This document shows positions 9,862 through 42,303 of a DNA stretch of 64,000 bases, one piece after another. The number at the start of each line of letters is the position of its first letter. The first letter of the stretch is position 1. Under the pieces are notes generated by a model. It was not told the origin of the DNA. It saw only the letters and a program-made list of their open reading frames with translations, and did not search any database. This stretch comes from Halanaeroarchaeum sp. HSR-CO (lineage in GTDB: Archaea; Halobacteriota; Halobacteria; Halobacteriales; Halobacteriaceae), in NCBI RefSeq assembly GCF_024972755.1, contig NZ_CP087724.1, positions 868,001 through 932,000 of the forward strand, read 5' to 3'. Position numbers and translations under genes: made by a program.

Positions 9862-11721
9862 ATGACGGAGACGCAGGGCGAACTCGCGGCGCTTTCGAAG
9901 TACATCTTCCGCGCGCCGAGTTGGCGGGCCACCGTCCCCTTTTCCCTGCTCATCGCCGCACTCGCGGGGGTCGCGGCCTTCGACTCCCGGTTCCTTCTCG
10001 AGGATATCTGGCAGGGGATCTTCTTCATCGGTGCGCCCACGCTCGTCTCGGCGGCGGCCACGACGCCCATCGACCGGTGGCTCGGCGGTCAACTCACGTT
10101 CACGCGCTCGTCTTTACTCGCGACCGTCGGCGAGGTCGTCCTGGTCGCGCTGGTGAGTCTCGCGGGTATCGTCACCGTCTTCACCGACCTGGGGCAGAAC
10201 TTCGTCTTCGACGTCCTCATCGCGGCGCTGGCGCTCGTCTTCGCCATCCGATTGCTCGTCGTCCTGGCGGTGTCGCGGACCTCCCCGCTGCTCGCGTCGA
10301 TCCCGGCGAGCATTCAGACGTTGACCTCGGGGCTGGTCCTGTTCGTCTACAGCGGGACGATGAACTACTTCTCCATCGGTGGTCCCTACCTCCAGGCCAT
10401 CCTCTCGCGAACCGAAGACGCCCCGTCGGAGATCACTCAGGCGTTCATCCCGAGCGATTTCGGGCTCCTCGTCGCGATGTCGGTGCTGTACGGCGTGGTT
10501 GCCTACGGATTCGTCCTCGCCATCGACCGCCCGTGGCAGCGGAGTCTCGGGGTGAGTTCTCTCGACTTCATCCAGGGGTTTATCGGCCACGTCGCCGAGG
10601 GGTCCCGAGAACTCGAGACGTTTTTCGAGCAGATCGGCGAGCGGTCGATCGTCCCGGTGACGGTCCTCTCGTTCCGCCGGGAGAAGGGGGACGAGAAGGC
10701 GCGGTTCGTGCTGCCGATGATCCATCCCGGCCCGATGGGCGAGATCGGGGGTGGGAATCTTCCCCAGCGAGTCGCCGAGTCGACCGCCGGACTGGCGTTT
10801 CCGCCCCACGCCACGGCAGGACACGACTTCAACCTGGTTACCGAACGCGAGGTCGGGACACTCATCGACGCGGCCGAGTCGGCCCTCGAGACCATCGACT
10901 ATCACGGCGAGGCCACGCCAGCGATACGGTCGGTCGAGGGCGAGGCCAAGATACTCGGGCAGCGGTTCGGCGAGGACGGTCTGCTCGTCTCCACGTTCGC
11001 GCCGACGTTCACCGACGATGTCGACTACTCGGTCGGCCTCACGACGATGGCGGAAGCACGGGTCGCGGGCCTTGAGGACGTGCTCCTGGTCGACGCGCAC
11101 AACTGTAACAATGGACTCGAGGGCGATGACCTTGGCCACGTCGTCCCCGGGAGTGGTCGCTCGTTCGAGATGATGCAGGCGGCGTCCGCCGCGGCGGACC
11201 GACTCGTCGAGGCCGACACGGAACCGATGGGACTCGGTACCGCGTGGGACCGAACGACCTGGCGTATCGAAGACGGCATCGGCCCCCTCGGCGTACGCGT
11301 CGCGGTCCTGGAGGTCGGCGAGCAACGAACCGGCTACGTTCTCATCGACGGCAACAACATGGAACCGGGACTTCGCGACCGACTCCTGGAGGCGGTCGAT
11401 GATCTCGATGCCATGGAGGTGATGACGACGGACACTCACGTGGTTAACACGGTCGAGTCGACGAACCAGGTCGGTGACGCCATCGAGGAGGCGGCACTGG
11501 TCGACCTCGTCGAGTCGCTGGTCGCAGAGGCACTCGAGGACGTCGAACCGGTGGAAGCCGGGATGGCGACCGAGCGGGCCGAAGTGACCGTCTTCGGTAA
11601 CGACCGCACGGAGACCCTCGCCAGCCAGGCGAACGCGGTCATCTCCATGGCTGGCTGGCTGGGAGCCGCCGTCATCGTCGCGACGGGAGCGATCAGTCTC
11701 CTGGTGTTCCTTGTCACCTGA
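9862..11721 (+). CDS. DUF2070 family membrane protein
   Basis: The 619-residue protein has about seven hydrophobic helices in residues 20-235, a large soluble domain (about 240-590), and a last hydrophobic helix at the C-terminus. The soluble part carries the family hallmarks PMIHPGPMGEIGGGNLP, HATAGHDFNLV and VDAHNCNNG. Conserved His, Asp and Asn in these patches suggest metal or phosphate chemistry, but the function is unknown. It sits 1 bp after guaAA, so the two probably share an mRNA. Confidence 0.85.
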   Translation: MTETQGELAALSKYIFRAPSWRATVPFSLLIAALAGVAAFDSRFLLEDIWQGIFFIGAPTLVSAAATTPIDRWLGGQLTFTRSSLLATVGEVVLVALVSLAGIVTVFTDLGQNFVFDVLIAALALVFAIRLLVVLAVSRTSPLLASIPASIQTLTSGLVLFVYSGTMNYFSIGGPYLQAILSRTEDAPSEITQAFIPSDFGLLVAMSVLYGVVAYGFVLAIDRPWQRSLGVSSLDFIQGFIGHVAEGSRELETFFEQIGERSIVPVTVLSFRREKGDEKARFVLPMIHPGPMGEIGGGNLPQRVAESTAGLAFPPHATAGHDFNLVTEREVGTLIDAAESALETIDYHGEATPAIRSVEGEAKILGQRFGEDGLLVSTFAPTFTDDVDYSVGLTTMAEARVAGLEDVLLVDAHNCNNGLEGDDLGHVVPGSGRSFEMMQAASAAADRLVEADTEPMGLGTAWDRTTWRIEDGIGPLGVRVAVLEVGEQRTGYVLIDGNNMEPGLRDRLLEAVDDLDAMEVMTTDTHVVNTVESTNQVGDAIEEAALVDLVESLVAEALEDVEPVEAGMATERAEVTVFGNDRTETLASQANAVISMAGWLGAAVIVATGAISLLVFLVT

Positions 11722-31916: not shown

Positions 31917-32990
31917 TCAGAACAGGCCGTCCAATTCCTCTGTGTCGAAGGCGGCGGCCGGGTCCTCCCGCTCGACCGTCTCGTTGGCCTCTTTCGCGCG
32001 CTCCATGAAGGCGTCGATGCGGGGTGAGCGCGCGATGCCGGCGAGGACGACGATGACGCCGATGCGGTCGGACTGGAGCGGCAGGTCGCCACCGCGGACT
32101 TGCATGCTCTCGGTCTCCTCTTCGACCCACCGCCGCGCCCGTTCGACGCCCTTTCGTGAGATGCGGTCCGGCTCGCCTGCGACGATGACCAGGCCCGCCT
32201 CCGCCCTCGCGGTCTGCGGGACGCTCATGCCCGTGATGAGGGCTTTCCGGGTCGTGCTCGTGACGACGTTGATGTTCTCGCCGGGGTCTGGGGATGCCTC
32301 GGCAGACGCGTACCCGATGGCAGCCATGCCGCCGGCGCGGAGGGTGTTGATCACCTCGCTCGAGTCCACGACGGATTCGCCCACGCCCTCGACGTTCTCG
32401 CCGGCCGCCAGGACGAGTCCGATGCGCCGAGCGATAGTCGCGTTGATCGACTGGAACGATTCTTCGACGCTCTCGCCACTCGCGTGCCAGGCGTCGTTGT
32501 CGACCAGGAGGACCGAGTCAGTCTCTCGGACGAACGTCTTGAGCGACCGGCCAGCGTTCGCCTGGTAGATGGCGCCCTCGTTCCGACCGGGGAGGATGCC
32601 CAGACCGTAGACTGGCATCTCGTATACTCGTCGAAGTTCCCGGGCCAGGACCGGCGCGCCGCCACTGCCGGTTCCGCCACCAAGACCGGCGACGACGAAG
32701 ATGGCCTCCGTCGACGGATCGACGATGCCGTCCAGCCCGCCCATCACCTCGCCGATGTCCCCCTGCATGATGGATGCGCCGAGTTCGTTATCCGCTCCCA
32801 CACCGTGGCCCTCGACGCGCTCCTGGCCGATGAGCATCGTCTCGACGTCGAGCGGTTCGATGTCCGTTCGAGCGGTATTGACGGCGAGGACACCGCGGAT
32901 CGCGCCGTAGCCCGCTTTCTGATCGGCATCCCGGATGGCGGTCGCTACCTTCCCCCCGGCCTGTCCAAGGCCGATCAACGCGGCTTTCAT
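31917..32990 (-). CDS. CetZ-family tubulin/FtsZ homologue
   Basis: The 357-residue GTPase belongs to the archaeal cytoskeletal CetZ group, which controls cell shape and motility. The start MKAALIGLGQAGGKVATAIR gives the first nucleotide-binding strand, and the tubulin signature GGGTGSG is at 104-110 in FVVAGLGGGTGSGGAPVL. Residues from about 210 onward form the C-terminal domain. The start at 32990 is chosen because it yields the exact N-terminus of the family. The C-terminus ends in an acidic peptide (FDTEELDGLF), possibly a binding tail. A TATA-like AACGTTGATAGG lies about 30 bases upstream; the pilus-like operon is divergent. Confidence 0.9.
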   Translation of the reverse strand: MKAALIGLGQAGGKVATAIRDADQKAGYGAIRGVLAVNTARTDIEPLDVETMLIGQERVEGHGVGADNELGASIMQGDIGEVMGGLDGIVDPSTEAIFVVAGLGGGTGSGGAPVLARELRRVYEMPVYGLGILPGRNEGAIYQANAGRSLKTFVRETDSVLLVDNDAWHASGESVEESFQSINATIARRIGLVLAAGENVEGVGESVVDSSEVINTLRAGGMAAIGYASAEASPDPGENINVVTSTTRKALITGMSVPQTARAEAGLVIVAGEPDRISRKGVERARRWVEEETESMQVRGGDLPLQSDRIGVIVVLAGIARSPRIDAFMERAKEANETVEREDPAAAFDTEELDGLF

Positions 32991-33036
32991 ACCCGAGTGA
33001 TAGCCGGCCCGGCCTATCAACGTTTGGCCCTCCGAG

Positions 33037-33070: not shown

Positions 33071-33481
33071 ATGCAGCGAACCCGGAGCCTCGAGAAGCGA
33101 CTCGATGCGGTGGAGCGAGCGGTCACGGACGGGGAGGTGCCCGTCGCAGACGTGGAGGACGCGGCCGGACGTACGGCCCGCATCGAGCGCGTCGAGTCGC
33201 GACTCGATACGATGGAGGCACAGGTCGATGACCTCGAGGCGGCCGTCGCGGCCATCCGCGGCTACGTCGGCGAACTACGCCACGTGAACCGGGAGGTCGA
33301 ACGGACGGCCTCCGCTGCCGTCGCCGCCGTCGACCGACTGGACGCCGGTTCGGGGCCCTCACCACCGATCGCCCGTGTCGACACCGACGAGCGGGTGGTT
33401 CCCGAGACGCTTCCGGCGGACGAAGCGCCGGGTGCCGAGGAGGACCGCGCGGTCCTCGATCGGCTGCGAGCGCTGCTGTGA
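33071..33481 (+). CDS. Coiled-coil protein of the pilus-like operon
   Basis: The 136-residue protein is mostly a coiled coil. Heptad-like Leu/Val/Ile spacing runs from about 5 to 75 (SLEKRLDAVERAVTD, RIERVESRLDTMEAQVDDLE, IRGYVGELRHVNREVE). The C-terminal 50 residues are acidic and flexible, ending VLDRLRALL. It is the first gene of the operon. Its stop overlaps the GTG of the next gene. From memory it matches a small haloarchaeal coiled-coil family (DUF7310) that precedes GspE/TadC genes. It may link machine parts in the cytoplasm. Confidence 0.78.
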   Translation: MQRTRSLEKRLDAVERAVTDGEVPVADVEDAAGRTARIERVESRLDTMEAQVDDLEAAVAAIRGYVGELRHVNREVERTASAAVAAVDRLDAGSGPSPPIARVDTDERVVPETLPADEAPGAEEDRAVLDRLRALL

Positions 33482-34035
33482 TCGTCCGTCTCGTCCTCGC
33501 GGCGGTCGTCGCGGCCGCACTCCTCGGGGCAGCGATGCCCGTTATCGACGACGCGAGACACGAAGTGGCGGCGACGGACGCGGACCGTTCGGCCACGGCG
33601 ATAGCGGCCGCCATCACCGACATCCGCCGTTCGAGCGACCCCGCCCCACGAGGGGTCGCCGGCGCGAAGCGGATCGTGACCGTCGAGACAGCCGACGGGG
33701 CGACGATCACGGTCGGGAGCCAGTCGAACCGAACCGCAGCAGGCGCGCGCGAGAAGCGGACCGAACCAGGTTCGAGCGAGAATGGATCCGCGTCGGGGGC
33801 GAGCGAGAACCGAACCGGTATGGACGGACCGACGGACGACGTCATCTCGTATCGGGTGCCGTCAGGGACCACGGGCACCGTCGCGGTCGACGCGGACGTT
33901 CGCGTCGTCAAGAACGGGTCGGTTCGGCCCGACGGAGAAGGGCTCGCGCTCCGCGACGGGCAGCGCGCCGTCCTCCGACACGAACTGGTCGATGGGGACC
34001 CGACCGTGACGGTCGAGAGACTTTATCCCGGATGA
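33478..34035 (+). CDS. Single-pass membrane protein of the pilus-like operon
   Basis: The 185-residue protein starts at a GTG that overlaps the previous stop (GTGA) and has one N-terminal hydrophobic helix (VRLVLAAVVAAALLGAAMPV), immediately followed by acidic residues, like a pseudopilin or membrane-tethered ectodomain. Residues 25-50 are helical (DADRSATAIAAAITDIRRS). A low-complexity Ser/Asn/Glu stretch (about 80-120, repeated SEN motifs) holds several possible N-glycosylation sites (NRT, NGS). A beta-rich tail follows (TTGTVAVDADVRVVKNGSV). I relate it to DUF7311-type proteins from memory only. Confidence 0.75.
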   Translation: MIVRLVLAAVVAAALLGAAMPVIDDARHEVAATDADRSATAIAAAITDIRRSSDPAPRGVAGAKRIVTVETADGATITVGSQSNRTAAGAREKRTEPGSSENGSASGASENRTGMDGPTDDVISYRVPSGTTGTVAVDADVRVVKNGSVRPDGEGLALRDGQRAVLRHELVDGDPTVTVERLYPG

Positions 34036-35873
34036 CCGGACCAGCCCGCCATATGTTCACCGAGTCCGAGGGCGGTTCGGAGTGTGCCTGCGAGCACGAA
34101 TTCGTGGACGATCGACTCGTGGTCGACGCCGAGGAGTGCTCCGGCGACGGGGACCTCGCCACGGAGTCGGCGTGTCGCGCACACGTCGTTCGTTCGCTTC
34201 GCGAGCGTTCGGTCGCGGTCGTGCGCGTGGAGCGCGACGGCGTCGCGGTCTCGTACGAGGGCCGGGCCGCCCGACTGTTGTCGACCGCTGGAGCGTTCGC
34301 CGCCCGCGTCGCGGCGCGCGATGCCGAACTCGCGGAGCGGACCGAACGGGCACCACTCGCCGCCGCACGAGACGCCGCCAGTCGAGTGGGCCCGGTACGG
34401 GACCTGGCAACGGAGACGGGCTTTGTCCGGTATGCGGACTTGGACGACCTCGACTCTGTTCTCGTCGGTGCGATCGGGCCGTCGATCGCCGCCGCCAGGC
34501 TCGATCCCCGACCACCTGAAGACGCCCGGGTCCTCGCGTCACGGGTACTCGATTCCGGTGCCACGGCGCGGGTCTACGAGACGGATGGCGACCGTCGCTA
34601 CCACCTGGAACCGCTCGAGTACACCTTCGGAGCGACGGCCTTCGCGACGCTGGAACGGGCCCACGCCGAACTCGCCACGCTGGAACCCGGGCGTCGGTCG
34701 GCACACGACGCAGTCGCCACCGTCGCGGGCGCCGACCAGCCCCTGGATGCACTGGGTCGCGTTCTCGCGAAACACACCCAGGGATACGGCGTCCTCGACG
34801 ACCTGTTCGCGGATCCCCGCGTGGGTGAGGTGTACGTCAACGCCCCGGCCGACGAAACGCCGCTCCACGTCCGCGTCGACGGACGGACCATGCAGACGAA
34901 CGTGCGACTGACCGAACGGGGTGCGAAACTCGTTGCCTCCCGCATCCGCATGGAGAGCGGCCGGTCGTTCTCGCGGGCCGACCCGACCGTCGACGCCCTG
35001 CTCACGGACGTCGGCGGCCGGACGGCAGTCCGCGTCGCCGGCGTCCAGCCCCCGGCGAGTGACGGCCTCGCGTTCGCCTTCAGGGCCGAGGCGACCGACG
35101 AGTGGCGCCTCTCCACGCTGGTGGATCTCGGCACGCTCTCGCCGCGAGCGGCCGGATTCCTCGCGACGGCGATGAGCCGTGGCGCTGCCGTCCTCGTCGC
35201 CGGACCACGGGGCGCCGGGAAGACGACGCTCGCGTCCGCGTTGCTCTGGGAACTGCCACGGGAAAAGCGACTCCTCGCCATCGAGGACACCCCCGAACTC
35301 CCGATACGATCGATCCAGGCGGCCGGTCGGGACGCACAGCGACTCCAGGCGGCACCGGACGACGCCGATCTCTCCCCCGCAGCGGCCTTGCGAACCGCGC
35401 TCCGACTCGGCGATGGTGCCCTCGCCGTCGGCGAGGTCAGGGGGCCGGAGGCCGCCGTCCTCTACGAGGCGATGCGAGTCGGCGCGGCGTCCAGTGCCGT
35501 CCTCGGAACCATCCACGGCGAGGGCGCCGACGGCGTGCGGGAGCGGGTCGTGTCCGATCTGGGCGTCCCGGCGTCGTCGTTTCGAACGACCGACCTCGTC
35601 GTGACCATCGTCCCGGACGGTGCAGACCGGCGGGTCGCGGCCATCGAGGAGATAACGGACGCTGGCCCGAGCACGCTCTTCGAACTGACGGACGACGGCG
35701 TCGAACCGACCGGGCGGATCGCCAGAGGGAACAGCGAATTCGTCGCCGCGATGGCCACGGCCTCGGAGTCCTACGCGGACGTCCGTGAGAGCATCGGGGA
35801 GCGCGTGCCGGACTTCGAGGCCGTCACACCGGCCGCCGATTCGGTGCCGCGTCCGGAGACGGTGACGCCATGA
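34032..35873 (+). CDS. Type IV pilus / type II secretion assembly ATPase (GspE/TadA family), intact
   Basis: The 613-residue ATPase powers assembly or secretion from the cytoplasmic side of TadC. Its N-terminus has spaced Cys (CACEHEFVDDRLVVDAEEC, then C48), a possible metal site. The core begins near 235 (ADQPLDALGRVLAKHTQGYG). Walker A is GPRGAGKTT (391-399), the acidic box AIEDTPELP is near 416, Walker B AVGEVRGPEA near 465-474 and the His box GTIHGEGAD near 492. These motifs are complete, in contrast to the paralogue at 2443-4545. Starts and stops overlap the neighbours by ATGA on both sides. Confidence 0.92.
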   Translation: MTGPARHMFTESEGGSECACEHEFVDDRLVVDAEECSGDGDLATESACRAHVVRSLRERSVAVVRVERDGVAVSYEGRAARLLSTAGAFAARVAARDAELAERTERAPLAAARDAASRVGPVRDLATETGFVRYADLDDLDSVLVGAIGPSIAAARLDPRPPEDARVLASRVLDSGATARVYETDGDRRYHLEPLEYTFGATAFATLERAHAELATLEPGRRSAHDAVATVAGADQPLDALGRVLAKHTQGYGVLDDLFADPRVGEVYVNAPADETPLHVRVDGRTMQTNVRLTERGAKLVASRIRMESGRSFSRADPTVDALLTDVGGRTAVRVAGVQPPASDGLAFAFRAEATDEWRLSTLVDLGTLSPRAAGFLATAMSRGAAVLVAGPRGAGKTTLASALLWELPREKRLLAIEDTPELPIRSIQAAGRDAQRLQAAPDDADLSPAAALRTALRLGDGALAVGEVRGPEAAVLYEAMRVGAASSAVLGTIHGEGADGVRERVVSDLGVPASSFRTTDLVVTIVPDGADRRVAAIEEITDAGPSTLFELTDDGVEPTGRIARGNSEFVAAMATASESYADVRESIGERVPDFEAVTPAADSVPRPETVTP

Positions 35874-37552
35874 CGACAGACGAACGACGTCGGTGCCACG
35901 GGCTGGCGGTGGCCGTCGAGGAGTCGATCCCCATCGACGACACGCCCGAACTCTCCCGACACCCGTGTCTCACCGTCGCCGGCGTGACCCTGGTTGCTGG
36001 TGCCTTCCTCGTCGTCGCGGGTAGTGTTCTGCTGGCGTCCGGGCCGGCCCGTGCTGCAGGAGTCGGATCCGGTGTCGCGCTGGGCGCGCTCGCGACGTAC
36101 GGAACCTGGTTCGCGCCGTCGACGGTCGAGGCGTATCGCCGCAGGACGGCCGTCGGCTCGGTGCCAGAAGTGGTGGCCTACGCCGTGCTCCAGGCGCGGC
36201 TGACGCCATCGCTCGAACGGGCCGCTCGCTTCGCCGGGGAACAGTCGGGCGGGCTGCTCGGCCACGACCTCGCCACCGTGGGGAGTGGCGACGTCACCGG
36301 GCAGGCCGGATGGGAATCTTTCGCCGCCGAGTGGTCCGCGTACGACGAGTCGCTCCCGCGGTCGGTCGCTTTGCTCACCGCGGGGATCGACTCGGCACAA
36401 CCGGCCCGTGATGCACTGCTCGACCGCGCCCTCGATACCGCCCTTTCGGGGTCCCGAGAACGAGTGGCGACTTTCGCGGCGTCGATCAGGGCTCCGGCGA
36501 CGGGAATCTACGCTTTCGGTGTGCTCTTGCCGCTCGCGATGGTGGGGCTGCTCCCCGTGGCCTCGAGTGCGGGGGCCGGCGTCTCGCCCGCCGCCATCGC
36601 CGTACTGTACGATGGGGTCATCCCGATCGGTCTCCTGGCGGCGAGTGGTTGGCTCGCCGCTCGTCGGCCCGCCGTCTCACGCCCGCCCACCGGTATCGAC
36701 AGTCTCGCGTCTTCACGATCCGCGACCCACACGATTCTTCTCGCCGCCGGGGCGGGCGTCACGGCAGGCGTCCTCGCGACCCTCGTGCTACCGGCCTGGA
36801 CGATCTGGATCGTGGCGCCCGGAATCGCCGTCGGCACGGCGGCGATCTACTGGTTCGACCCGATCCGGAACCGCCGACGGCGGGTGGAATCCATCGAGTC
36901 CGGGATCCCCGATGCCGTTTCGCTCGTCGGGCACCGACTGGCGGCTGGCGACCCACTGGAGTCCGCAATCGCCGTCGTCGGGGAGCGGATGACCGGCGAG
37001 ACGGCCAGCGTGTTCCGCGATGGGACGCGCATACATCGACGGCTCCGGGTGACTGTTCCCGAGGCGTTTACCGGGTCTGGCGGCGCTCTCTCCGCGTTCG
37101 AGAGTCGACGAACGGAGACGGCCGTCGCGCTGCTCGCCGCCGCAGCACGGAACGGCACGGCGGGTGGCGAGACCCTCGTCGACATCGCCGGCTACCTCCG
37201 CGATCTGGACGACGTCGAACGGGACGCGCGTCGTGAACTGTCGCGGACGACGGACACCTTGCGACAGACCGCGCTGGTGTTCGGTCCCGCCATCGCCGGC
37301 GTCACCGTCGCGCTCGCGACCGGCATGGGCTCGCTCGGCGAGCACGGCCAGGCCGTCCCGGTTCCCGCGCTGGGTGTCGCCGTCGGTGGGTACGTCCTGG
37401 CGCTCGCCGTCGTCCTCCCGGCGCTCTCCGTGGTTCTCGAACGGGGGTTCGATGGGGCGATCGTCGGCCACCGGGTCGGCATCGCGCTCCTCACCGCCAG
37501 CACCGTCTATCCCATCACGTTCCTCGCGGCCCGCAGCGTGGTACAGGTTTAA
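35870..37552 (+). CDS. tadC: TadC/GspF-family membrane platform protein of the pilus-like operon
   Basis: The 560-residue protein has two GspF-like halves and about eight hydrophobic helices: pairs near 40-85, 205-265, 285-320 and 465-560. The cytoplasmic domains include PEVVAYAVLQARLTPSLERA near 102 and SGIPDAVSLVGHRLAAGDPL near 343, each followed by the characteristic helical bundle. It receives force from the ATPase encoded just upstream (ATGA overlap). The next gene begins 26 bp after its stop, a slight break in an otherwise overlapping operon. Confidence 0.88.
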   Translation: MTTDERRRCHGLAVAVEESIPIDDTPELSRHPCLTVAGVTLVAGAFLVVAGSVLLASGPARAAGVGSGVALGALATYGTWFAPSTVEAYRRRTAVGSVPEVVAYAVLQARLTPSLERAARFAGEQSGGLLGHDLATVGSGDVTGQAGWESFAAEWSAYDESLPRSVALLTAGIDSAQPARDALLDRALDTALSGSRERVATFAASIRAPATGIYAFGVLLPLAMVGLLPVASSAGAGVSPAAIAVLYDGVIPIGLLAASGWLAARRPAVSRPPTGIDSLASSRSATHTILLAAGAGVTAGVLATLVLPAWTIWIVAPGIAVGTAAIYWFDPIRNRRRRVESIESGIPDAVSLVGHRLAAGDPLESAIAVVGERMTGETASVFRDGTRIHRRLRVTVPEAFTGSGGALSAFESRRTETAVALLAAAARNGTAGGETLVDIAGYLRDLDDVERDARRELSRTTDTLRQTALVFGPAIAGVTVALATGMGSLGEHGQAVPVPALGVAVGGYVLALAVVLPALSVVLERGFDGAIVGHRVGIALLTASTVYPITFLAARSVVQV

Positions 37553-37578
37553 ACCACAGGACCGGGCCACCCCGTCCC

Positions 37579-38046
37579 ATGAACGCGACTCCCGCCGACG
37601 TACCGTTCGTCTGGATCGCCCTGCTCGTCGTCAGCGCGAGCGTCCTCGGTGTCGTCCTCTCGGTACCGACCGCACCGCCACCAGACGCCGACCGGGTGGC
37701 GGCCGCCATCGACGAGGTCGCGGCCACCGACCACGCCGCTGAGACGGTGATACCGATCGATGCGACGGCGGTCAGGATCGAACCGACGTCGATCGCCCTT
37801 CGAGATTCGGGCGGGTCGGCCCACGCGTCGCTGTACTTCGGGCCGGTCGTACCGGCGCAGCCCGGCAGTGACCTCGCGGCGGTGGCACGGGGGACGCGGC
37901 CCGATGCCCTGTATGCCACCCCGGCGGCGTTCGAAGCCGCTCTCGACCGAGCACACACCCGAGAGCACACCTGGCGAACGGCTGGCGACGAACTCCGAGT
38001 TCGTCGGGTCCAGTTCGGGGAGGTCGACGGTGTCATCGTCGGGTAG
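37579..38046 (+). CDS. N-terminally anchored protein of the pilus-like operon (1 of 4)
   Basis: The 155-residue protein has one N-terminal hydrophobic helix (PFVWIALLVVSASVLGVVLS, about 9-28) and then an extracellular domain. It begins PPPDADRVAAAIDEVAATD and has a beta-rich middle (AVRIEPTSIALRDS, ASLYFGPVVPAQPGS). No pilin cleavage motif is obvious. It overlaps the next gene by 17 bp. From memory the haloarchaeal family set DUF7283-DUF7286 matches these four genes in this order. The likely role is a pseudopilin or structural part. Confidence 0.72.
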   Translation: MNATPADVPFVWIALLVVSASVLGVVLSVPTAPPPDADRVAAAIDEVAATDHAAETVIPIDATAVRIEPTSIALRDSGGSAHASLYFGPVVPAQPGSDLAAVARGTRPDALYATPAAFEAALDRAHTREHTWRTAGDELRVRRVQFGEVDGVIVG

Positions 38047-38404
38047 CAGGGCCCAGGTCGAACCGCTCCCCGCGCTCGTCGCGGTGAGCGCGTTCGTCGC
38101 CGCACTGGGGGTCTACGCGGTCGCGTTCCACGACGTGCCCACCGATACCGACCGGGACGTCGCGACGCAGGCGCTCGCGGCGGTGGTGGAGTCCGCGTCG
38201 ACCGCCGGCGTTCTCAACCCGGCGGCGGTTCCAGACGACGGCCCGGGTGGCCACGAGATGGCGGTCGTCGTCCGGGCCGACGGCAGCGAGTGGAACACGG
38301 GCCCCGAACCCCCGGCCGATGCCAGATCGGCGACGAGACAGGTCCTCGTCGGCACCGATCGCGGTGAGCAGGTGGGGCGCATCAGGGTCTGGGTGTGGCG
38401 ATGA
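38030..38404 (+). CDS. N-terminally anchored protein of the pilus-like operon (2 of 4)
   Basis: The 124-residue protein starts at a GTG inside the previous gene. SRAQVEPLPALVAVSAFVAA, then LGVYAVAF, form a short charged leader followed by a hydrophobic helix, the layout of archaeal pilin-like proteins and TadE-like minor pilins. The outside domain has DRDVATQALAAVVESAS and a beta part ending VGRIRVWVWR. The stop overlaps the next ATG by ATGA. The exact start is less sure than its neighbours because the codon is GTG. Confidence 0.7.
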   Translation: MSSSGSRAQVEPLPALVAVSAFVAALGVYAVAFHDVPTDTDRDVATQALAAVVESASTAGVLNPAAVPDDGPGGHEMAVVVRADGSEWNTGPEPPADARSATRQVLVGTDRGEQVGRIRVWVWR

Positions 38405-38949
38405 ACCGGGGTATCAGTACGGTCCTCGACGTGGGATTCGCCATCGTCCTGGTGGGCGCGAGCGTCGCGGTCCTCGCCGGCGTCCCCGCGACGGGCGTCG
38501 ACCAGCAACCCGCCGTCCACGCGAGCGGTGGTGTCGCCGTTGCCGGCAGCACCATGACGGTGGAGTACGAGCGAGAAGACGATCGATCGGCAGTCGTCAC
38601 ACGGACCGTCGCGGGCCACGTTCGCGATGCGGCCATCGCACGGGACCAGGGCGTCGGGGAGCCGTACGTCAGTGCCGTCGAGGCGGACGTCGCCGATCGC
38701 ATCGCGGAGACGGGGACGCGCACGCAAATCGTCGGCGCGTGCGTCGAGGACGGTCGTGCGTCGACGATGGGGCCTGAGACGAGACATGAGAGCGCAGACG
38801 CGGGACAGGACGCCGGGACCGTCGTCGCTGGTCCCGCGCCACCGACCGGGGCACCGGTCGACGCGACGGTGTATCGCTGGAACGAGTCCGCAGTCCCGAC
38901 TTCGACGGCGTGCCAGCCGGTCGTCGTCGTCCGGAGCTGGTCGCCGTGA
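38401..38949 (+). CDS. N-terminally anchored protein of the pilus-like operon (3 of 4)
   Basis: The 182-residue protein begins MNRGISTVLDVGFAIVLVGA, then SVAVLAGVP, a short basic leader and hydrophobic helix typical of archaeal pseudopilins (RGIS-type leaders). The rest is extracellular: YEREDDRSAVVTRTVAGHVR, two Cys (near 122 and 172) that could pair, and a disordered acidic section (PETRHESADAGQDAG). Overlaps by 4 bp on both sides tie it firmly into the operon. Confidence 0.74.
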   Translation: MNRGISTVLDVGFAIVLVGASVAVLAGVPATGVDQQPAVHASGGVAVAGSTMTVEYEREDDRSAVVTRTVAGHVRDAAIARDQGVGEPYVSAVEADVADRIAETGTRTQIVGACVEDGRASTMGPETRHESADAGQDAGTVVAGPAPPTGAPVDATVYRWNESAVPTSTACQPVVVVRSWSP

Positions 38950-41822
38950 CCTTCGTCGCTGACGAGCGAGGCCGCGTGCCGTTCGCGCTCGTCGCGGCGC
39001 TGTTGCTCGTGAGCAGTCTGACGTACACGAGCGGCCTCGTCCACGAGGAACCCGCGGAACCGGTCTCCCCCCGACTGGTCGAGGAGGCGACCGCCGAGGC
39101 TCGCATCCAGCTCGGGAGCGTGGCACAGACGGCCGATCGGAACGCGGCGGCCGAACCCGTGACGACCGTGGCGACGACCCGACTCGGCCGGCTACTCGCC
39201 GACGACCCGTTCGAACGCTCCCTCGAACTCCGTATCGCCGTACTGGCTCGCCAGGACGTCGTCGCGAATCGCACAACCGACGGGTCCACCGTCGATGTCA
39301 CGGTTCCACCGATCACGGACGAAGCTGACGCCCGCCGCGCGCTCGGGGAAGTATCGACGACTCACCTCACCGACGACAGATACCGCGTTCGTCTGGAGAA
39401 CGTCTCCGTGACGGTCCACCGAGATGGGCGTGTCGTGGACGACGACACCATCGCCCTCGAGACGACGGTCGCGCTCCCCTCGATGGCCGTTCACCAGCGT
39501 GCACGGACCTTCGAGCGCCGACTGTCGGCGGGGGTCACTGAAGCAGGCCTCGAGCGAGGACTCACCACCCGTCTGTTCGCACTGGCCTGGGTTCGTGGCT
39601 ACGCGCAGTACGGCGGCGCACCGATATCGAACGTCGTGGCGAACCGGCACGTCGGCGTCCTCACGAACGACGCCCTCGTCGACCAGCAGGTGGCCACCTT
39701 CGGCCGGGCCGACCCCGACAGCCGGCGCGGCGTGGCCCGGGCGGGTGCGGACGTCGCCGTCGCCGACGGGGTCGGCGGGATGGAGAGTCTCATCTCCGCC
39801 GAGATGGGGCCCGACGACGAGGCGGCCAAACCCGAGGGTGCCGCGTCACTCGGGGCCATCGATACGCCGTCGGTCATGGACGATTCCCACGAGTATGACG
39901 TGGGCCGCGGTGCGGACGAGGCGTTCGTGGACTTCGTCGATGGAAGCGGGCTGGACGACGCGCTCTCGGCGGCGTATCGGGCTCGGATCCGCCCGGCGGC
40001 CACGGCTCGACAGACCGACTATTCGGTACGCCACGGCGGCAGTCGACCGGCGAACGGGACGCCTCAGTTCTCGTACACGACGACCGACAGAACGGTCAGC
40101 GGAGACGACCGGACGGCCGGTCGGGGATCGACGGTGCTCCGATACGATCGGACGGTCACGGTCACAGAGACGGAGTACACCTACTGGATGGTCAACCGGT
40201 CGGTCGTCGCCACGACGAGTACCGAACGGGAGCGCACCTACGACGTCTCCATCGACGTCCGCTGTCGCTACGACGCTCCCGACGCTCCGGGCGGTCGCGT
40301 GACCCGCGAGTGCCCATTCGGGGGGACGGCACGGGCCGACCTCGAAGGCGAGGCGGCCAGCGCCATAGCGGGCCGGTTCGGCGGCGTGGATTCGATTGCC
40401 GAAGACGCCGTCCGTGGCGACCCGTCGTACCGGTGGCGGGCGGTTTCCGTGGATCCGCCGCGACGGGCCCGTGAGCGAGCGTACGCTTCGACCGCCGACC
40501 TGCGAGACGACCTTCGGGACGTCGACGTCGCGGTCGAACCAGCATCGATGGCGTCGACGGCGAATCCGGCGTCTCGGCTGTCCGAGACCGTCCATCGGCG
40601 CCACGACCGGCTGGTGGCAGCCCCCCGATCCTATCGCTCGGCCGCCGCGGTGGCGGAGTTCGTCGCCAGAGAGCGGTACCTCGACGCGATGGAGGCCGAC
40701 CTCGACGACCACTCGTCGACGTTCGCCGGGATGCAGGACGCGCTGGGGGACGTGATGGCCGACCACGCGGTCCCGAGTGAGCCACCTGCGGGAGAACCCG
40801 ACACGCTCTCTCCCATCGCCTCGTCCGTCGAGGCCGAACCACGGTACCTGTCGCTCGAGGCCCAACGGGGGTCGCCCAACCTCGCCGCCAGGAACGTCAA
40901 CGTGTTCACGGTTCCCTACGGGGACGTCGCGGACTCGGTCTCGGGAGTCGTCGGCGGGGACGAGGAGTCGACGTCGCTCTCGACGGCGACCAGCACCCTC
41001 GTGGCCACGAACCGCGCGCTCGCCGAGGAGCCCGATCCGCAGTTGCGTGCCGAACGGGACGGACTGCGCGAAGCGATCCGTCAGTCGCTCGACGCCGTCC
41101 GCGAGGAACAGCGACGGGCGCTTCGGGAGGGCGCTGGACTATCACGGACCGAGGCGACCAGGGCTCTCGATGCTGGATACGACCGCTACGGTTCGACCGC
41201 GGCGCGGGCCACCGCGATCGTCGAGGGGACGATCTCGGGCGACGTCGCGGCGTCGCTTCCCGACTCGCTGTCGGCGAGCGAGCGTGACCGTGCCCAGGTG
41301 GCACTGCGGGTGGCGACGACCGAGGCGCGAGACGCAGCGTCGGTCAGCGTCGACGAATCTACCGTCTCCGCCGCGACCGATCGATTGCGCCCCCACGTCC
41401 GCGAGGGCGTCGACCAGGCGGTTCGGGTGGGGACCCATCGTGCGGTGTCGCTGGGGAAACGGCGGGCGATGCGCTCGGCCGCGGCCGAGATCCCTGCTGG
41501 ACTCCCGCTGACGCCCGTTCCGGGCCAGTGGTACGCGACGGCGAACGTCTGGGTGGTCTCTGTCGAGGGCGGTTACGACCGATTCACCGTCGAGACGCCG
41601 CGGACGACGCCGATTCACGGCGACGACGGGACGGTGTCGTACGTCCGCGAATCGGCGGCCGTGACACTCGACGTCGACGGCGACGGTATCGAGGAGACTA
41701 TCGGCCGGAACGAACCGATCGACCTCTCCGCCGACACCGGGGTCGTCGTGGTGGTCCCGCCAGGTCCCGCCGGTGTGGGTGATACGAACGGGGTCGCCGA
41801 CGAACGGTCCCCCGGCTGGTGA
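38946..41822 (+). CDS. Large anchored ectodomain protein of the pilus-like operon (4 of 4), 958 residues
   Basis: This is the biggest protein of the operon. A short leader (VTFVADERGRVPFALVAALL) and one hydrophobic helix (about 10-30) are followed by some 930 extracellular residues. No second membrane helix is seen. Features are helical stretches (RLVEEATAEARIQLGSVAQT), a Thr/Arg-rich middle with paired Cys (VRCRYDAPD...TRECPFGGT, near 441-457), long Ala/Arg helices (about 690-850) and a closing beta domain (VWVVSVEGGYDRFTVETPRT, DVDGDGIEETIG). The GTG start overlaps the previous stop. Role unknown: an adhesin-like tip, stalk or secretion gate are possible. Confidence 0.8.
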   Translation: MTFVADERGRVPFALVAALLLVSSLTYTSGLVHEEPAEPVSPRLVEEATAEARIQLGSVAQTADRNAAAEPVTTVATTRLGRLLADDPFERSLELRIAVLARQDVVANRTTDGSTVDVTVPPITDEADARRALGEVSTTHLTDDRYRVRLENVSVTVHRDGRVVDDDTIALETTVALPSMAVHQRARTFERRLSAGVTEAGLERGLTTRLFALAWVRGYAQYGGAPISNVVANRHVGVLTNDALVDQQVATFGRADPDSRRGVARAGADVAVADGVGGMESLISAEMGPDDEAAKPEGAASLGAIDTPSVMDDSHEYDVGRGADEAFVDFVDGSGLDDALSAAYRARIRPAATARQTDYSVRHGGSRPANGTPQFSYTTTDRTVSGDDRTAGRGSTVLRYDRTVTVTETEYTYWMVNRSVVATTSTERERTYDVSIDVRCRYDAPDAPGGRVTRECPFGGTARADLEGEAASAIAGRFGGVDSIAEDAVRGDPSYRWRAVSVDPPRRARERAYASTADLRDDLRDVDVAVEPASMASTANPASRLSETVHRRHDRLVAAPRSYRSAAAVAEFVARERYLDAMEADLDDHSSTFAGMQDALGDVMADHAVPSEPPAGEPDTLSPIASSVEAEPRYLSLEAQRGSPNLAARNVNVFTVPYGDVADSVSGVVGGDEESTSLSTATSTLVATNRALAEEPDPQLRAERDGLREAIRQSLDAVREEQRRALREGAGLSRTEATRALDAGYDRYGSTAARATAIVEGTISGDVAASLPDSLSASERDRAQVALRVATTEARDAASVSVDESTVSAATDRLRPHVREGVDQAVRVGTHRAVSLGKRRAMRSAAAEIPAGLPLTPVPGQWYATANVWVVSVEGGYDRFTVETPRTTPIHGDDGTVSYVRESAAVTLDVDGDGIEETIGRNEPIDLSADTGVVVVVPPGPAGVGDTNGVADERSPGW

Positions 41823-41868: not shown

Positions 41869-42303
41869 ATGCTCCTGGATCCGATCGACGCTCCTGCGGA
41901 AACGACGGCCGAGGACCTTCATCTCGCGTACCTCGAGGAACTCGCCGCGGTCGTCTCGGACGTGGGCGTCGACGAAGCGGCGGACCGGACGGGGATTCCA
42001 GCAGATACGCTCGCGGCGCTCGTCGCCGGTGAGCAGCCCCAACTCGTGCTGGACGACGCCGCGGCGATACTGGCGCTGACCGACGACTGGCCGGACGCGG
42101 ACGTGGTGATGCTCGAGATCCGCGACTCGATCATGCTAGGGATGAGTTCGGCGGTCCTCGACGTCGACGCACTCGAGCGAGCACTCGACGACGGGCTGGA
42201 CGCGAAGACGATCCAGCAGATGATAGAGGGACGCCGGCCGTTACCACTCGCGACCTACGCGGCCATCGCGTTGACCATTCGCCGTGAGAACGACTACGCC
42301 TAG
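41869..42303 (+). CDS. DUF5791-like haloarchaeal protein
   Basis: The 144-residue acidic protein is all helical: TAEDLHLAYLEELAAVVSDV, GVDEAADRTGIPADTLAALV (a helix-turn-helix-like segment), DDAAAILALTDDWPDAD, IRDSIMLGMSSAVLDVD, and IQQMIEGRRPLPLATYAAIA. It resembles a family I recall as DUF5791. The helical repeats could bind DNA or protein, but no function is known. It starts 46 bp after the pilus-like operon and may be its last gene. It overlaps the convergent zinc-finger gene stop by 3 bp. Confidence 0.75.
   Translation: MLLDPIDAPAETTAEDLHLAYLEELAAVVSDVGVDEAADRTGIPADTLAALVAGEQPQLVLDDAAAILALTDDWPDADVVMLEIRDSIMLGMSSAVLDVDALERALDDGLDAKTIQQMIEGRRPLPLATYAAIALTIRRENDYA

Follow-up and report, generated by a model that had tools for sequence, protein, structure and literature searches.

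A probable archaeal type IV pilus machine in Halanaeroarchaeum sp. HSR-CO with a giant prepilin-like protein, a pilin encoded in trans and an associated HerA-type ATPase

We analysed a stretch of 64,000 nucleotides from the 2.79-Mb genome of Halanaeroarchaeum sp. HSR-CO (the window; contig NZ_CP087724.1, G000:C1:868001-932000), in which eight co-directional open reading frames (ORFs) occupy positions 33071-41822 of the forward strand. These genes probably encode the central part of a type IV pilus machine of the archaeal kind. Its pilin is encoded in trans, a giant subunit would lie at the tip or surface, and a second ATPase would be associated with the machine. The reading is carried by gene content, gene order, homology, N-terminal motifs, linkage and co-occurrence. 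By gene content and synteny with cetZ2 the locus is assigned to the published subclade 4F, or PilB2-C2, type IV pilus loci; a locus of this kind has already been predicted in print and is not itself new.

The eight-gene operon and its products

The products are given below in their 5' to 3' order; the vertical bar in an N-terminus marks the predicted cut.

33071..33481, +, DUF7310 cytoplasmic coiled-coil protein (PF23991, 1e-27; no hydrophobic segment)
33478..34035, +, DUF7311 pilin-like anchored protein, apparently leaderless (PF23993, 2e-23)
34032..35873, +, PilB/VirB11-type (T2SSE-type) assembly ATPase with a four-cysteine N-terminus (PF00437, 1e-19, above cut-off)
35870..37552, +, TadC/PilC-like (T2SSF-like) membrane platform protein (PF00482, 17.9 bits against a cut-off of 25.2)
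37579..38046, +, DUF7283 single-helix anchored protein, no prepilin site (PF23954, 3e-48)
38030..38404, +, DUF7285 small pilin-like protein, N-terminus R-A|QVEP (PF23956, 4e-23)
38401..38949, +, DUF7284 pilin-like protein, N-terminus R-G|ISTVLD (PF23955, 7e-7)
38946..41822, +, DUF7286 giant prepilin-like ectodomain protein, 958 residues, N-terminus R-G|RVPFAL (PF23957, 1e-255)

Overlaps of 4 bp are found at five of the seven junctions (33478-33481, 34032-34035, 35870-35873, 38401-38404 and 38946-38949), the one between DUF7285 and DUF7284 being counted from the DUF7284 ATG at 38401. The fourth junction, between the TadC-like gene and DUF7283, is a 26-bp gap (37553-37578), and DUF7283 and DUF7285 overlap by 17 bp (38030-38046) given a GTG start of DUF7285 at 38030. 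Gene order was compared over 80 loci from named genomes, which were picked by DUF7286 and hence hold it by construction. The complete eight-gene order is kept in 66 of them, 47 with CetZ upstream; among the other 14, some are interrupted by contig ends and three, all Halorussus-type, are rearranged, with the DUF7283-7286 block separated from the DUF7310-CetZ block. The order is conserved far beyond chance and confirms that the operon is real, in agreement with an earlier sequence-only reading of this DNA, which had described an eight-gene overlapping operon with mostly 4-bp junctions. That reading also rightly proposed a machine of the pilus kind, with a GspE/TadC pair as its base and small anchored proteins that resemble pilins; it had counted four anchored proteins, whereas five of the operon proteins, DUF7311 among them, carry one N-terminal hydrophobic segment each. 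Every product belongs to a conserved Pfam family except the weakly matched TadC.

The GspE half of the pair is borne out by a T2SSE match above the cut-off, and the solved structures matched by this ATPase are CpaF (nearest by E-value), GspE-2 and FlaI. It has exactly four cysteines, at residues 18, 20, 36 and 48 (window 34032-34200). The N-terminus is similarly rich in cysteine in 67 haloarchaeal homologues (median 4), and 12 non-haloarchaeal PilB homologues hold 6-12 cysteines within the first 250 residues; the four-cysteine cluster suggests a small metal site. The TadC half is a putative assignment, its Pfam match lying below the cut-off; the protein has seven hydrophobic segments, and TadC-like relatives directly follow PilB in all 12 non-haloarchaeal PilB loci.

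Prepilin-type N-termini were scored as K/R-G/A followed at the proper spacing by a 14-residue hydrophobic core. Such a site is present in 78/80 homologues of DUF7286 and 76/79 of DUF7285; as background, 100 other ORFs of these loci whose N-terminus likewise has a hydrophobic core were scored, and 10 had the site. The homologues of DUF7286 open with D-x-R-[GA]-R-[VI]-P-F-A-L, and the PilA-type pilins of this genome read R-[GA]|VSP or similar; common to both is the pattern R-[GA]|xxP, with a small residue before the cut and proline at +3. The last protein of the operon indeed has 958 residues and a single N-terminal helix, as had been noted from the sequence. Because of its prepilin-type N-terminus, found in nearly all homologues, DUF7286 looks like a giant pilin-like subunit, and this is preferred to the earlier suggestions of a filament base or a secretion channel, for neither of which was anything seen; the further suggestion of a tip or surface part fits. 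The operon as a secretion channel was rejected, there being no channel-like part.

The smaller anchored proteins are more varied. An R-G/A site is found in 41/80 homologues of DUF7284. DUF7311 matches its non-haloarchaeal homologues with a profile probability of 96.6%, and five of six of those sequences have a leader-like start ending in Gly or Ala. A motif scan flagged 'other' sites in DUF7283, which were set aside as they are not of the K/R-G/A kind.

The pilin and the HerA-type ATPase outside the window

The sequence-only reading had found no pilin or prepilin peptidase gene. For the families tested this holds within the window, whereas both are encoded in trans: the genome has six Pilin_N genes, a single A24 prepilin peptidase gene (G000:C1:174469-174798) and one DUF7382-type pilin gene (G000:C1:611478-611876; E 3e-17 in a profile search), none of which falls inside the window. 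The last of these families was first met beside PilB-TadC in four non-haloarchaeal loci (L172, L173, L177 and L181), as a pilin of about 160 codons that begins like a prepilin (DE-x-G|VEGLP) and has an Ig-like head, for which the Pfam name is DUF7382. L172 also holds an A24 prepilin peptidase gene (11094-11573), flanked by a gene for a HerA-type ATPase on one side and a DUF7311 homologue on the other; PilB-TadC is about 2 kb away.

Presence of pilin, HerA or PilB in the counts that follow is an E-value cut, not a phylogenetic assignment. A profile of the pilin gives one main match per genome in 73 of 97 haloarchaeal genomes sampled from the class. Pilin and DUF7286 occur together in 72 of these, DUF7286 only in two (G056 and G067), the pilin only in one (G028, a weak partial match) and neither in 22. 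Outside the class, a non-random choice of 80 genomes was checked, 58 of them carrying one or more system parts and 22 others, and the pilin is found in 50 of the 55 that bear PilB. At L194, L195, L197, L198 and L202 a related pilin gene lies immediately upstream of the operon and divergent from it. That the substrate is one of the six Pilin_N genes was rejected, as linkage and matching distribution favour the DUF7382 pilin; a shared substrate is possible.

Next to the pilin gene, likewise outside the window, lies the gene of a HerA-type ATPase (G000:C1:610296-611390; L192) of 365 residues with the P-loop GKRGSGKS and the Pfam domains DUF87 and HerA_C. The two genes lie within 1.5 kb of each other in 59 of the 68 class genomes that hold both. 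In L194, L195, L197, L198, L199 and L202 herA is directly upstream of the operon and co-directional with it, and a HerA homologue is near PilB-TadC in L172, L173 and L177. No HerA gene was found within the 80 cetZ-type loci, for which HerA is therefore in trans, as here. Its solved relatives are HerA helicases, and the nearest full-length PADLOC defence model is mad8 of MADS (77 bits). In the class sample HerA is present in 69 of 74 DUF7286-positive and in none of 23 DUF7286-negative genomes (matches above 100 bits, including partial ones in G045 and G056, the latter probably a remnant). It is lacking in five DUF7286-positive genomes: G012 and G067, in which the system is decayed, and every one of the three g22 genomes sampled. 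Over 392 genomes of the phylum, with the L172 protein as query, HerA and PilB occur together in 107, PilB only in four, HerA only in one and neither in 280; this count takes 116 matches less six that are confined to the C-terminal half and are weak or at paralogue level (G043, G068, G314, G522, G056 and G457) and less two fragments (G479 and G571). The HerA-type ATPase and DUF7382 pilin genes probably belong to the system of the operon.

The operon itself is widespread. Of 292 genomes sampled from the class, 224 carry DUF7286; for the phylum the count is 113 of 392 genomes, among them 53 that lie outside the class. The controls Haloferax volcanii and Methanosarcina acetivorans both gave matches. 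PilB and DUF7286 occur together in 107 of the 392 genomes, DUF7286 only in six, PilB only in four and neither in 275, and outside the class both are present in 51 of the 57 genomes holding either. Three of the six DUF7286-only genomes (G012, G056 and G067) hold part of the gene only, which would fit a system in decay. PilB was not found in these three either. Broken or partial DUF7286 was also seen at L073 and at L123; the latter, with its broken reading frame, was the one locus of the 80 left out of the structure alignment, and one further analysis drew on 57 of the 80.

Thirteen DUF7286 loci from outside the class, probably of methanogens, are arranged differently. Homologues of DUF7284 and DUF7285 precede DUF7286 in three of them and sit across a hisS-like gene in two more. 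The PilB-TadC pair is in none of the 13 loci, and a PilB orthologue is encoded elsewhere in 12 of the 13 genomes (250-267 bits, next best matches below 80 bits). For DUF7283 and the second small protein of the non-haloarchaeal loci, hhalign gave a probability of 11.9% (E 0.0025) against 0.1-0.3% for unrelated pairings; homology of the two is weakly supported and is not claimed here. At L132, stand-alone copies of the C-terminal part of DUF7286 lie beside small ORFs of about 180-230 residues with a hydrophobic N-terminus, of the kind that follows DUF7286 in 11 of the 13 loci (L126-L136; N-termini read by eye).

Neighbouring genes and published systems

Two further conserved genes flank the operon.

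31917..33020, -, CetZ2-type tubulin-like GTPase, divergent upstream neighbour (Pfam CetZ_C, 3e-64)
41869..42303, +, DUF5791 gene directly downstream (PF19104, 4e-41, residues 49-171 of the longest ORF; start inferred from the position of the Pfam domain)

PDB 4b45 and 4b46 are CetZ2 and CetZ1 of H. volcanii, as identified in the CetZ passages of Brown and Duggin (2023, PMC9856176). The CetZ protein scores 464.6 bits against the former and 319.4 bits against the latter, and was typed as CetZ2 by the higher score. CetZ is present in 50 and DUF5791 in 72 of the 80 DUF7286 loci; CetZ2 is probably an accessory and not a required part.

The account of subclade 4F by Makarova, Koonin and Albers (2016, PMC4858521) agrees with the system in most of its parts: a VirB11-type ATPase with a Cys-rich N-terminus, TadC, several pilins, a coiled-coil protein, an FtsZ-like neighbour, a large predicted surface protein and a pilin of a PilA-related family that is usually encoded alone. 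Unlike here, HerA is not named as a part in that account, and the large protein is described there as S-layer-like, whereas we find a prepilin-type N-terminus. The DUF7382 pilin is probably the stand-alone major pilin proposed there by arCOG number. The families arCOG02981, arCOG10216 and arCOG07564 were mapped to operon genes by description only, and from the 4F passages we infer that DUF7310 is the coiled-coil protein arCOG07564. When full texts were searched for the arCOG and DUF names, this paper alone carried any of them, and the six DUF names of the operon were not mentioned in the literature searched.

Brown and Duggin (2023), in their passages on the pilB2/C2 regulon, locate it beside cetZ2 and describe the role of such pilB2/C2 systems as unknown. 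The neighbourhood and the adjoining CetZ subfamily are the same as ours. The parts appear in those passages only as arCOGs, however, with no in-trans pilin or HerA, and a mobile element is suggested, whereas we observe near-complete co-inheritance of the parts. Membership in a characterised archaeal pilus family with assigned parts would have counted against the sequence-only reading, and this objection holds by half: the locus does belong to a family described in silico, its parts assigned by prediction, while no experimental characterisation or demonstrated function was met in the texts consulted.

Other systems resemble this one less closely. In the PilB3-C3/PilA adhesion pili of H. volcanii the motor operon is likewise apart from the pilin genes, and the PilA-type pilins share the N-terminus R-[GA]|xSP; the ATPase is of another clade (PMC6491452), and neither a giant prepilin nor HerA is known from these pili. 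Bacterial Tad/Flp pili have in CpaF/TadA the nearest solved ATPase. A further likeness is presumably their set of small TadE/F-like proteins and one large TadG-like anchored protein, whereas no Pfam match to a Tad pilin, secretin or TadG was obtained here. The Ced and Ted DNA-import systems also combine a HerA/VirB4-type ATPase with pilins; unlike the operon system, they are described in the relevant passages of PMC9905601 as derived from type IV secretion with a CedA/TedA channel, for which no search was made here. Identity of the locus with the pil-2 locus of Halobacterium (Hbt.) salinarum was rejected, the gene make-up given in the pil-2 passages of PMC4292770 being different. Three features of the system were not found in print, namely the giant subunit resembling a prepilin, the pilin-like partners that seem to lack a leader, and the HerA-type ATPase encoded beside the pilin and inherited with the system; a link of HerA to these pili was not mentioned in the full texts searched (supplements excluded).

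Proposed mechanism and alternative readings

What follows on processing and assembly, on the tip, on adhesion and on HerA is our inference. The ATP-hydrolysing PilB beneath the TadC platform would assemble the separately encoded DUF7382-type pilin, and the single A24 peptidase of the genome would trim this pilin, DUF7285 and DUF7286. DUF7311, DUF7283, DUF7285 and DUF7284 may prime the filament as minor subunits that resemble pilins. DUF7286, which is the largest protein and is encoded last, would most likely come to lie at the filament's tip or outer end, where it could touch other cells or surfaces. The HerA-type ATPase encoded beside the pilin would be an associated second ATPase, which might move DNA, retract the filament or have a task in the cytoplasm, and DUF7310, with CetZ2 where present, may act as a cytoplasmic helper.

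Several observations weigh against this picture. The T2SSF match of the TadC-like protein (17.9 bits) stays under the 25.2-bit cut-off. The operon's small proteins are not ordinary pilins: DUF7283 has no K/R-G/A site in 79 homologues, 62 of 68 DUF7311 homologues offer no start codon further upstream in frame, and in the other 39 of 80 DUF7284 proteins the start codon is at or near the mature end. As DUF7311 and half of the DUF7284 proteins begin at or near the mature pilin end, they would need no prepilin peptidase. DUF7286 has arginine at +1, which is uncommon among class III signals. The three sampled g22 genomes, of one genus, carry the rest of the system but no HerA, and no pilin match at E 1e-6 was obtained in five of the 55 PilB-bearing non-haloarchaeal genomes. 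Finally, the sampled genomes are related, so that the Fisher P values presume more independence than there is.

The structure models do not help the pilus reading either. For the 958-residue protein, whose structure prediction had been proposed from the sequence, an AlphaFold model from 80 sequences reached a predicted local distance difference test score (pLDDT) of 81.6 and a predicted template modelling score (pTM) of 0.53. A membrane helix (13-29) is followed by alternating helical and beta domains; the beta domain at the C-terminus is conserved and carries D-x-D-x-D-G-like motifs. Nothing in the PDB matches it significantly (best Foldseek E 0.083), pilins and adhesins included, which excludes nothing. 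The best VIA-align score (Z 5.9, SecB, over 98 residues) concerns a single domain and stands at the level of a common arrangement. The DUF7285 model (pLDDT 86.7) consists of a membrane helix, a short helix and four strands, a layout that appears pilin-like, although the structure search gives no proof of it. Among solved structures it has no meaningful pilin or adhesin match, a result that excludes nothing; its best match, ribosomal protein uS3 (Z 7.4, 81 residues, Foldseek E 0.1), was taken as a common alpha-beta arrangement.

A stronger form of the pilus reading makes HerA an integral second motor of a two-motor filament of the phylum, either moving DNA together with the filament, for uptake or for exchange between cells, or standing in for PilT; the DUF7382 pilus built by PilB-TadC would be capped by the giant prepilin-like subunit, and several subunits would be leaderless. 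We put this forward as tentative and less likely than not. A PilT retraction motor is said to be absent from archaea. As a rather unlikely alternative, the machine could be an endopilus akin to type II secretion systems. Its pseudopilus would then be short and work like a piston, pushing or anchoring surface proteins, and DUF7286 would be the cargo or the tip. Several pilin-like minor subunits together with one very large one would suit it, and the small hydrophobic-N-terminus ORF after DUF7286 in 11 of 13 non-haloarchaeal loci could be an exported partner. This ORF is not seen in haloarchaeal operons, however, where DUF5791 takes its place; a dedicated Ig-headed pilin co-occurs with the system, and archaea, as is generally known, have no outer membrane to cross.

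The remaining alternatives turn on HerA. Its co-inheritance with PilB, adjacency to the pilin and DUF87 and HerA_C domains would fit a DNA uptake or exchange machine in which the PilB-TadC filament draws cells or DNA near and HerA pumps DNA, comparable to CedB/TedB; CedB, according to the Ced passages of PMC9905601, is VirB4/HerA-like and powers DNA import. We consider this unlikely, since no CedA-like channel or ComEC was seen, with no search aimed at them, and since HerA is lacking in three haloarchaea of a single genus that carry the system. In H. volcanii, moreover, deletion of pibD left mating unaffected and cetZ2 transcripts drop under mating conditions, as stated in the mating passages of PMC7749143. 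Conversely, HerA might be a neighbour with its own job in DNA end resection or defence, leaving a single-motor pilus machine. HerA-type ATPases are common in defence and repair, and the closest full-length PADLOC model is the MADS component mentioned above. We regard this as distinctly improbable, because HerA is co-inherited with PilB even where the genes are far apart (107 with both, 4 and 1 with one only and 280 with neither), and because herA stands directly upstream of the operon and co-directional with it in the six loci named above.

An archaeal type IV pilus machine thus remains our favoured explanation. The full part list, comprising the operon, the in-trans pilin and HerA, makes the function of the system testable gene by gene. 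If HerA is a working part, one motor of this type IV pilus would be of the DNA-pump type, and the system would bear on pilus retraction without PilT and on DNA uptake and exchange in haloarchaea and methanogens.

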